From Deefgea salmonis (lineage in GTDB: Bacteria; Pseudomonadota; Gammaproteobacteria; Burkholderiales; Chitinibacteraceae), in NCBI RefSeq assembly GCF_020531905.1, contig NZ_JAJAWG010000001.1:310001-374000 (forward strand): DNA of 64,000 nt. The letters are read 5' to 3'. The first letter of the stretch is position 1; the number at the start of each line of letters is the position of its first letter. Positions 58,876 through 61,480 of this stretch are shown here, one piece after another. Below the pieces are notes generated by a model. That model ran no database searches. It was not told the DNA's origin and worked only from the letters and a program-made list of their open reading frames with translations. Made by a program: the position numbers and the translations under genes.

Positions 58876-59407
58876 GAGCAAATTTTACCAGTGAGCAAAA
58901 GGGGATCATTCTAACCGAAGCAATTCACTCACGAAACCGACTTATTCCATTCAAGGCATGAAATGTTGGTGTTTTTGATGCGGATGGAATTTTATTTGCC
59001 TTAACTTACCTCTTTATATGTAAATATTTGTAACAAATGTTAAAGAAGTTGCAAATGCCATTGAGCTTGTTGAGCAAACTCAACAATATGGCAAAACTTG
59101 TAGCAGAGAATGAGTTTGGGTTTTGGTTGTTATGGAAAAAGTATCGACAAAGATCGAAACCATTCATGCGATTATGCCGAATCAATGGCAGGGTAAGTCG
59201 TCTAATGTCCTTCGTATTGACACAAAACGAATTTAGTTTGCGATTGAAATTGACTCGGTGCAGTGTATTTTTTAGTCAATTTTTTGATTGGTAAATACAT
59301 CGGCGTATGAATAAGTTCAACTTGTTTCTTCTACGAGCGAATAACACTGCATGCAGTTTATGGTGCAGATCACCATTTTGGTGAACATGTATAAAAGGGG
59401 ATGCGTC
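58876..59407 (+). other. 532-bp upstream region of the PTS genes
   Basis: No convincing gene; a short open frame at 59037-59294 has no ribosome site or recognisable sequence. The region holds several possible control sites: a hairpin TTGTTGAG-caaa-CTCAACAA (59067-59086), a TTCGT...ACGAA inverted repeat (59211-59231), a possible promoter TTGATT-16-TATGAA (59284-59311), the perfect palindrome ACTGCATGCAGT (59346-59357), and TCACCA-ttt-TGGTGA (59370-59384). Confidence 0.5.
59284..59384 (+). promoter_or_regulatory. Candidate nagE promoter and operators
   Basis: TTGATT (59284-59289) and TATGAA (59306-59311) are 16 bp apart. The palindrome ACTGCATGCAGT (59346-59357) and the 6-3-6 inverted repeat TCACCA-TGGTGA (59370-59384) lie between it and the ribosome site AAAGGGG. 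The binding factor is unknown. Confidence 0.4.
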
Positions 59408-60910
59408 GTGAATATTTTAGGTTATTTACAAAAAATCGGCCGTGCGCTGATGGTGCCGGTGGCTACTTTGCCAGCCGCCGCAATTATGATGGGTATCGGC
59501 TACTGGCTTGATCCAAACGGCTGGGGCGCGGATAGCGCCACTGCAGCCTTTTTGATCAAGGCCGGTGCTGCGATTATCGACAATATGTCGATCTTGTTCG
59601 CAGTCGGTGTTGCATACGGGATGTCAAAAGATAAAGACGGTGCTGCGGCACTGGCCGGTTTGGTCGGTTACTACGTTTTGACAACCCTGTTGTCGCCAGG
59701 CGCGGTATCGCAAATCGAAGGCATTGCACTCAAAGACGTGCCTGCCGCTTTTGGTAAAATCAATAACCAATTTATCGGTATCTTAACGGGTGTGATCGCG
59801 GCTGAAATTTACAACCGCTTTAGCCAAGTTGAGTTGCACAAAGCATTGGCCTTCTTCAGTGGCCGTCGCTGCGTGCCAATCATCACTTCGTTTGTGATGA
59901 TTGTTGTTGCCTTTATCTTGATGGCGATTTGGCCAGTGATTTACAACGGCTTGGTTAACTTCGGTATGAGCATTAAAGATATGGGCCCAACAGGTGCTGG
60001 TATCTATGCCTTCTTTAACCGTTTATTGATTCCAGTTGGCTTGCATCACGCCCTGAACTCAGTGTTTTGGTTTGACGTTGCCGGCATTAACGATATCCCT
60101 AACTTCTTGGGCGGTGCTAAATCTATCGCTGAAGGCAAAGCGGTTATCGGTGTGACGGGTATCTACCAAGCGGGTTTCTTCCCAATCATGATGTTTGGCT
60201 TGCCAGGCGCGGCATTGGCGATTTACCACACTGCCAAACCTGAAAACAAAGCTCGCGTTGCATCAATCATGATCGCCGCTGGTTTTGCTTCATTCTTTAC
60301 TGGTGTAACTGAACCGCTTGAATTCTCATTCATGTTCGTAGCACCTGTATTGTATGTATTGCACGCGTTCTTGACGGGTGTATCGGTTTACATCGCCGCA
60401 AGCATGCAATGGATTGCCGGTTTTGGCTTTAGTGCCGGTTTGGTAGATATGGTCTTGTCTTCGCGCAATCCATTGGCCAAAGACTGGTACATGTTGCTAG
60501 GTCAAGGTGCAGTCTTCTTTGCAGTGTATTACTTCGCTTTCCGCGCAGCGATCACGGCCATGAATTTGAAAACACCAGGTCGTGAAGACGACATTATCGA
60601 AGAAATCGCAACCCCAGAATCTGCTGCGGCCTCTGCTGCTGTTGCTTCGGGTAGCACGGCCGAATTGGCCATGGCGTATGTGACTGTGGTTGGCGGCGCA
60701 AGCAATGTAACTAACGTAGATGCCTGCATCACGCGCTTGCGTTTGTCAGTGGTTGACGCTGATTTGGTCAATGAAGCGGCTGCAAAGAAATTAGGCGCCA
60801 GTGGCGTGATTAAATTGAACAAACAAAGTGTGCAAATCATTGTTGGCCCTAAAGCTGAATTGATTGCCGATGCTTTGCGGATTCAGTTGGCGTCATCAAC
60901 AAAAAAGTAA
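59408..60910 (+). CDS. nagE: PTS N-acetylglucosamine-type EIICB
   Basis: Membrane permease and phosphocarrier of the glucose-family PTS that imports GlcNAc or glucose and phosphorylates it. The GTG at 59408 has AAAAGGGG upstream and gives VNILGYLQKIGRALMVPVATLPAAA, the family start. The EIIC domain (about residues 1-390) has the HHALNSVFWFDVAG and GVTEPLEFSFMFVAP motifs, the latter with the sugar-site Glu. EIIB follows with its phosphorylation Cys at residue 440 (NVDACITRLRLSV). E. coli NagE also carries EIIA; here EIIA is a separate gene that begins at the stop codon, with a slippery A AAA AAG just before it. Confidence 0.92.
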   Translation: MNILGYLQKIGRALMVPVATLPAAAIMMGIGYWLDPNGWGADSATAAFLIKAGAAIIDNMSILFAVGVAYGMSKDKDGAAALAGLVGYYVLTTLLSPGAVSQIEGIALKDVPAAFGKINNQFIGILTGVIAAEIYNRFSQVELHKALAFFSGRRCVPIITSFVMIVVAFILMAIWPVIYNGLVNFGMSIKDMGPTGAGIYAFFNRLLIPVGLHHALNSVFWFDVAGINDIPNFLGGAKSIAEGKAVIGVTGIYQAGFFPIMMFGLPGAALAIYHTAKPENKARVASIMIAAGFASFFTGVTEPLEFSFMFVAPVLYVLHAFLTGVSVYIAASMQWIAGFGFSAGLVDMVLSSRNPLAKDWYMLLGQGAVFFAVYYFAFRAAITAMNLKTPGREDDIIEEIATPESAAASAAVASGSTAELAMAYVTVVGGASNVTNVDACITRLRLSVVDADLVNEAAAKKLGASGVIKLNKQSVQIIVGPKAELIADALRIQLASSTKK

Positions 60911-60945
60911 TGGAAGTTGCGCCTGCTGCTGCACCTGCAGCGGCG
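60900..60945 (+). promoter_or_regulatory. Candidate -1 ribosomal frameshift signal at the EIICB/EIIA junction
   Basis: The heptamer A AAA AAG (60901-60907) lies in the reading frame ACA AAA AAG TAA, the correct phase for -1 slippage. After slipping, the next codons are GTA and the ATG of EIIA, so the frame continues into EIIA. A GC-rich stem with one bulge (GCCTGCTG/CAGCGGC, 60921-60944) starts about 13 nt downstream, somewhat farther than usual for a stimulator. Not tested. Confidence 0.5.
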
Positions 60946-61431
60946 AGCGTAACACCCGTAGTCAATCGCAATGAAACGATCCTATTGGCACCGATGTCCG
61001 GTGAAGTGATTGCGATCGAAGCAGTACCTGATGCGGCATTTGCCAGTAAAGCGGTGGGCGAAGGTGTTGCCATCCGTCCTACAGGCAATATCGTCGTAGC
61101 GCCTTGTGATGGTGAATTGGTGAAGATTTTTAATACCAATCACGCCTTTGCTTTGGTAACGGATTCAGGCGCTGAATTGATCGTGCATATTGGGATCGAA
61201 ACAGTGAAGTTAGGCGGACAAGGTTTTACCCGTCTCGCACAGCAAGGCGCACGTGTTAAAGCGGGCGACCCTGTTTTGGAATTGGATCTTGATTATTTAG
61301 CAGCCCATGCTGCGTCGATCATTAGTCCAGTGATTTTGTCCAACGCCGATCAGTTCCAAGCACTAGAAAGTGTGGCGAGCGGTTCGGTTGAGGCAGGCAA
61401 AACAGTGCTGTACACCTTCAAAGCCAAGTAA
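60910..61431 (+). CDS. PTS glucose-family EIIA
   Basis: Cytoplasmic phosphocarrier of 173 residues. An Ala/Pro-rich first 15 residues resembles an interdomain linker. The EIIA-Glc fold follows, with the phospho-accepting His93 (ELIVHIGIETVKLGG) and its partner His78 (NTNHAFALV). The ATG overlaps the EIICB stop by one base (TAATG) and there is no Shine-Dalgarno close before it. That fits translational reinitiation, or a -1 frameshift that fuses it to EIICB. Confidence 0.9.
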   Translation: MEVAPAAAPAAASVTPVVNRNETILLAPMSGEVIAIEAVPDAAFASKAVGEGVAIRPTGNIVVAPCDGELVKIFNTNHAFALVTDSGAELIVHIGIETVKLGGQGFTRLAQQGARVKAGDPVLELDLDYLAAHAASIISPVILSNADQFQALESVASGSVEAGKTVLYTFKAK

Positions 61432-61440
61432 TTAGTTGGT

Positions 61441-61480
61441 ACGCAAAAAAGCCACGAGCCTGCTCGTGGCTTTTTTGCGT
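61441..61480 (+). terminator. Strong intrinsic terminator after the PTS genes
   Basis: An 18-bp perfect stem, ACGCAAAAAAGCCACGAG and its complement, has a 4-nt loop (CCTG) with the T-run inside the stem. It lies 9 bp after the EIIA stop. Confidence 0.85.

Follow-up and report, generated by a model that had tools for sequence, protein, structure and literature searches.

A conserved candidate for programmed -1 ribosomal frameshifting between EIICB and EIIA of the GlcNAc PTS permease in Deefgea and related genera

Pseudomonas and Xanthomonas pair NagE, an EIICB protein, with NagF, an IIA-HPr-EI protein. Enterobacterial NagE is an EIICBA protein encoded in one open frame. The locus described here, which lies in a 64,000-nucleotide stretch of the Deefgea salmonis genome (contig NZ_JAJAWG010000001.1, positions 310,001 to 374,000; hereafter, the window), resembles both. 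Its 0-frame product has the EIICB form, and the window genome encodes an IIA-HPr-EI protein of 848 aa; unlike in the NagE/NagF pair, however, this EIICB has an EIIA of its own in the -1 frame, and the IIA-HPr-EI gene is found elsewhere, adjoining another EIICB. The product predicted from a -1 frameshift shares domain order and family with enterobacterial NagE, except that here two frames would be joined by recoding only.

The closest mechanistic parallels come from described frameshift genes. A_AAA_AAG ranks among the sites most prone to shifting in E. coli, in which a single tRNA-Lys reads both AAA and AAG, and spacers of 5-9 nt separate such sites from their stimulators (PMC5009743); structures generally begin 5-8 nt downstream (PMC4066793, PMC3711429). 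E. coli dnaX shares with the present locus the heptamer A_AAA_AAG, the single tRNA-Lys and a hairpin downstream (PMC5009743, PMC3711429), but the dnaX shift leads to a premature stop and a shorter product, whereas the shift proposed for nagE would lead to a longer one. Furthermore, dnaX has a Shine-Dalgarno-like 5' stimulator, an optional feature that rises above gene background in only one of the 15 nagE genes considered below (G017, -12.9 kcal/mol) and does not stand out in the other 14. Shifting into a second ORF to make a longer product is described for IS3-family transposases and for two-ORF -1 frameshift genes in GeneTack clusters, such as magnesium chelatase genes (PMC4066793, PMC3711429), and by number the majority of bacterial -1 frameshift genes reside in mobile elements (PMC4066793). 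In contrast to these, nagE encodes a PTS permease and not a mobile element, and it has fused single-ORF orthologues in sister genera, so that fission, recoding and re-fusion are open to direct comparison.

In the window, the 0-frame of nagE (EIIC-EIIB) occupies 59408-60910 on the + strand, encoding 500 aa from GTG 59408 behind the Shine-Dalgarno sequence AAAGGGG (-7.8 kcal/mol); an alternative in-frame ATG at 59351 would give a 519-aa EIICB. The 3' end of this frame reads TCA TCA ACA AAA AAG TAA. A first-pass annotation made from the sequence alone had drawn attention to the terminus ACA AAA AAG TAA, and it is indeed present in the EIICB frame, at 60899-60910, with the slippery heptamer A_AAA_AAG at 60901-60907 (+ strand) correctly phased for a -1 slip and the stop TAA at 60908-60910 immediately 3' of it. 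As that annotation also held, the slip would lead into EIIA: the -1 frame reads AAA AAA GTA ATG GAA, and 60907-61431 (+ strand) encodes 174 aa from GTA, through an Ala/Pro linker into EIIA, which together with the 500 aa of EIICB makes up by count the 674-residue fusion that had been predicted. An ATG at 60910-60912 lies in the EIIA frame and overlaps the EIICB stop. AAAAAAG occurs 32 times in the window, both strands counted, and only at this junction does it stand in A_AAA_AAG phase within an ORF of at least 120 aa. There is one full-length nagE copy in the window genome, a second match (183 bases, 67%) lying inside another PTS gene. Downstream of EIIA, at 61451-61476 (+ strand), a GC hairpin with a T run reads like a terminator, so that nagE may be a one-gene transcript; the evidence is weak, since a consensus scan of the region found 4 terminator-like sites against 4.0 expected from shuffles.

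The locus encodes EIIC, EIIB and EIIA domains of the GlcNAc type. The 0-frame matches Pfam PTS_EIIC (5e-72) and PTS_EIIB (5.4e-12), and EIICB qualifies as the GlcNAc equivalog (NCBIfam TIGR01998 PTS-II-BC-nag, 671.8 bits, cut-off 553.2). EIIA matches Pfam PTS_EIIA_1 (1.7e-45) in the -1 frame, on the same chain as EIICB only given the frameshift; NF007608 matches both halves, either of which alone falls below its whole-protein cut-off. As for the decoding machinery, a pattern search of the window genome found two tRNA-Lys genes, both UUU, and no CUU tRNA-Lys gene, a divergent example of which the pattern could miss. The dnaX ORF of the same genome contains no AAAAAAG and therefore supplies no second host case in support.

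How widely this arrangement is kept was judged from 43 genomes of the family, counted by the best EIIA match and its open frame. The split layout, in which the best EIIA match lies in a short frame, is found in 15 of the 43 and in three genera: seven Deefgea (g1), two Chitinilyticum (g5; G017 and G018) and six members of g4. Another 25 genomes place EIIA in a frame of 660-736 aa; 18 of these are NagE-like, with one fused frame and 73-81% identity in EIIC-EIIB, and in the remaining seven the locus examined is a paralogue (45-48% identity). The three g8 genomes have no EIIA of this type. All 15 split genomes carry A_AAA_AAG, an adjacent stop (TAA in 11, TAG in 4) and EIIA in the -1 phase. Absence of the heptamer from close relatives had been named beforehand as an outcome that would refute the frameshift; heptamer and phase are kept in every split genome, and that refutation did not materialize. 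Because the 15 belong to one family, they cannot be regarded as 15 independent events.

The C-terminal tails of EIICB vary (LASSTKK, LGAAPKK, LGGDAAKK, LAGQASKK, VLAGKK), so that the Lys-Lys pair and the wobble A preceding it stand out. The residue before Lys-Lys is Ala in eight genomes, Thr in three, Pro in two, Ser in one and Gly in one, with A as the third base of its codon in 15 of 15; third-place A makes up 7-33% of comparable codons in the EIICB genes. Both Chitinilyticum genes keep GCA AAA AAG despite the rarity of AAA (16% and 6% of Lys codons elsewhere in the two genes) and of third-base A (9% and 7% of the fourfold codons counted). Across the 15 genes, 13 of 276 columns with an invariant amino acid, Met and Trp aside, keep a single codon. 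Outside the family we considered 76 named loci (L044-L119), the further part of the best 80 matches listed; 29 of the 76 are fused and the other 47 non-fused, and among these matches the heptamer was found at the EIICB end of none of the 47 non-fused loci. An order sample of 399 genomes gave 33 with an EIIA match at 1e-30 and, among the matches listed, no short EIIA frame outside the family, and a class sample of 369 genomes gave two EIICB matches at 1e-100, namely the window itself and G678 (491-aa frame).

The first-pass annotation named coupled reinitiation at TAATG as the simpler alternative. On this view the ribosome would stop at TAA, back up and restart at ATG 60910 to make a separate EIIA. 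The requisite TAATG is present in the window genome (G000), G002 and G004, but in the other 12 of the 15 split genomes there is no junction ATG, and these junctions read GTA ACG, GTA GCG, GTA ATT, GTA ACT, GTA ACA, GTA AGT or GTA GTT; the 12 include G005, the EIIA of which is 98% identical. A start overlapping the upstream stop and kept in relatives, as translational coupling would require, is thus met with in only three of 15. In the window the ATG lacks a Shine-Dalgarno sequence, as had been noted, its best anti-SD energy being -1.5 kcal/mol against -7.8 at the nagE start. Though reinitiation is unavailable to those 12 genomes, the EIIA frame, judged by its codon substitutions, is under purifying selection, with dN/dS of 0.03-0.10 in nine pairs; in eight of these, both genomes lack a junction ATG. 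The pairs have genomes in common and so are not independent. Reinitiation also leaves the kept heptamer, the wobble A and the hairpin unexplained. We therefore consider it very unlikely as the explanation of the layout, while allowing that it may operate beside the frameshift in the three ATG species and, in that of the window, provide extra EIIA output.

Substitution patterns immediately past the junction are informative as well. All nine pairs show less synonymous divergence over the first 20 codons of EIIA than over the whole ORF (extremes, 0.25 vs 1.18 and 1.59 vs 1.77), as expected if RNA structure also matters. The dN/dS of this linker segment is 0.22-0.67, so that its protein sequence is only loosely constrained; the codons just past the slip vary synonymously and still encode V-x-E-(A/V)-(A/T)-P, with one Ser replacing Pro.

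The RNA structure in question is a candidate 3' stimulator hairpin at 60916-60953 (+ strand), with 16 pairs and one unpaired base per side, beginning 8 nt past the heptamer. A bulged GC stem about 13 nt downstream had been proposed at first; the stem stands, but it lies nearer than that and is longer than first described. Folded alone it reaches -26.4 kcal/mol (z -5.19), with 0 of 200 shuffles as good. A possible outer helix, pairing 60910-60913 with 60956-60959 (60910-60959, + strand), is suggested by folding and by Deefgea pair counts and would extend the hairpin; the 58 nt that include it fold to -32 kcal/mol (z -4.95), and two shorter stretches that cut the stem give z of -2.78 and -1.91. 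The Deefgea spacer is accordingly 8 nt, or 2 nt should the outer helix form. The fold is alike in all seven Deefgea, its top being shorter in G001, G003 and G006, and the six g4 genomes have a two-part stem, the lower arm of which (GAGGC/GCCTC) starts about 4-5 nt past the heptamer.

Measured against synonymous recoding that draws on each gene's own codon use, the hairpin region has z of -2 or below in 12 of the 15 split genomes (mean -2.61), against a background of 1029 other segments of the same genes that average -0.27, with 4.7% reaching -2 and the lowest position mean at -1.21. It does not exceed the synonymous expectation in G003 (z -0.92), G017 (-0.13) or G018 (-1.52); when a longer stretch is compared with its dinucleotide shuffles, G018 does stand out (z -3.38), whereas G017 does not (-0.32). 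Pairing in Deefgea is retained in 97.4% of 117 cells over six distinct sequences, with slid controls at no more than 61.5%, and 20 pairs include 10 changed on one side and one changed on both. These counts are no proof of covariation, since 180 of 500 shuffles of the 3' letters reach the same score, and the Deefgea set thus fails that control. In g4, pairing holds in 91.7% of 84 cells (slid controls, at most 51.4%), two pairs are changed on both sides, and the covariation score is reached by 1 of 500. Since the structures were derived from the very sequences used for the pair counts, the counts are biased in their favor.

A run of adenines could also restore the frame during transcription, if slippage at the A6 run added an extra A to some of the mRNAs. 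Every split genome does have the six-A run, and slippage has been argued for some dnaX genes with runs down to seven A (PMC3711429). Most described sites are longer, however, with nine A in one case (PMC1088944) and, elsewhere, eight or more A or two shorter runs (PMC3711429). All 15 nagE junctions have a run of exactly six A, short of the long homopolymer, usually of eight or more, that serves as the criterion for transcriptional realignment. It is always followed by G, for which slippage would have no need, and the position of the hairpin suits ribosomal shifting. We find transcriptional slippage scarcely credible here.

Free EIIA might instead be made by internal initiation at a GTG or TTG in or just past the linker, leaving the heptamer as a relic. 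Ten of the 15 genomes have a GTG between +20 and +35 past the heptamer, and motifs with SD-like energies from -4.9 to -6.2 kcal/mol precede some of these (G003, G011, G012, G013, G014, G017, G018), because of which a linker start cannot be excluded in some genomes. In G005, the first ATG, GTG or TTG of the EIIA frame is an ATG at +86, which lies about four residues inside the Pfam match, so that initiation there would lose only about that many; it is without a Shine-Dalgarno sequence (0.3 kcal/mol). Against such starts, the candidate positions are not common to the genomes, and G000, G001, G002, G004 and G005 have no candidate at all between +3 and +60. The SD-like energies fall short of the -7.8 at the nagE start, the spacing is poor in several cases, the GTGs sit within the hairpin, and upstream of them the -1 frame keeps the V-x-E-A/V-A/T-P motif (with its one S), all of which leaves us as doubtful of a linker start as of slippage. 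A formerly fused gene might also look split through a frameshift mutation, decay into a pseudogene or a sequencing error, for which one might cite the homopolymer at the junction and the fused relatives. This can be set aside almost entirely, as the same state recurs across three genera and 15 genomes, of which five (G004, G006, G012, G013, G015) are assembled as a single contig, and EIIA is under purifying selection.

The frameshift proposed in the first-pass annotation has thus gained support: with the heptamer in 15 of 15, reinitiation unavailable in 12 and EIIA under selection, the locus very probably undergoes a conserved, programmed -1 ribosomal frameshift that yields EIICB and a NagE-like EIICBA. 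This support is comparative only, because slippage is unmeasured in the absence of expression data; the slip itself, its efficiency and its role are not demonstrated. As we envisage it, a fraction of ribosomes would read AAA AAG and terminate at the adjacent TAA, releasing membrane EIICB. Otherwise, with tRNA-Lys(UUU) on AAA and AAG and the downstream hairpin resisting the ribosome, both tRNAs would move back one base onto AAA AAA, and the shifted ribosome would continue via GTA and the Ala/Pro linker through EIIA to complete the 674-aa NagE-like EIICBA. The shift rate likely sets the EIICB : EIICBA ratio, with both slip and role being inferred.

EIICB could then be served in trans by the IIA of the IIA-HPr-EI protein encoded elsewhere, while EIICBA would be self-served. 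Our tentative joint reading, which we put forward as possible but somewhat short of probable, is that in these genera the EIIA of this permease is made essentially only by frameshifting and that a tuned shift rate fixes the share of self-served versus IIA-HPr-EI-dependent permease. Each of the 15 split genomes has a second EIIA match, which lies in a long frame measuring 848-873 aa in 14; its domains were checked for that of the window genome only. There the locus (L163, contig C22, 2931-7791) comprises an EIIC-EIIB protein of 573 aa with two EIIB stretches, adjoining the 848-aa IIA-HPr-EI. In G015 (contig C1, ~2041258) the second EIIA match lies in a 460-aa frame, perhaps broken or split.

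To our knowledge, there are few -1 frameshifts by which a cellular protein gains an entire catalytic domain. If the joint reading is right, a PTS permease would here contain a recoding switch, and we found no precedent for that. No report of frameshifting in a PTS permease turned up in a search of titles and abstract openings that mostly did not cover subscription journals. The word "phosphotransferase" is absent from the main text of PMC3711429, PMC5009743 (its first 300,000 characters) and PMC4066793, supplementary tables excluded, so that a tabulated PTS cluster remains possible. The mechanism is of a known kind, then, and it is the gene and its distribution that look new. Annotation pipelines, we infer, probably render the locus as two genes or call a pseudogene.

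Whether the split layout had a single origin is not settled. In the EIICB tree, the 15 split genes group with two fused metagenome bins and a Propionivibrio EIICB (97/98); in the EIIA tree, Chitinilyticum lies nearer the fused g9 genes (89/73) and the two fused bins lie with Deefgea (98/92). In the Propionivibrio bin (L044) the EIICB chain carries no EIIA; the EIICB tree places this gene within the Chitinilyticum branch, by transfer or binning error, and another ORF at that locus carries a 40%-identical EIIA. Perhaps the layout began when a fused gene lost one A of an A7 run, which would have created the slippery site. Fused g9 linkers have AAA AAA GTA in 3 of 7 genes shown (5 of 27 loci gave no motif). 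In L023, L026 and L030, GCN AAA AAA GTA stands just before EIIA and resembles the -1 frame of the split genes; homology is doubtful, as the motif is about 20 residues further on than in those genes.

A later step may be visible within Deefgea, where three close species have ATG at the place where G005 has ACG. The junction ATG in these three could represent a move from recoding towards a separate EIIA gene. A single gain of the ATG is not settled, as the trees disagree: G005, which lacks it, falls outside G000, G002 and G004 in the EIICB tree and beside G000 in the EIIA tree. The gene trees mix histories, because EIIC is mosaic between genera (nagE of G001, G003, G006, G011 and G016; L008, L009, L007, L019 and L021). 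G001, a Deefgea, is 95-98% identical over alignment columns 1-240 to G016 of g4 and to the Chitinilyticum G018, and is Deefgea-like in EIIB columns 421-480, with 93-97% identity to G006 and G003.
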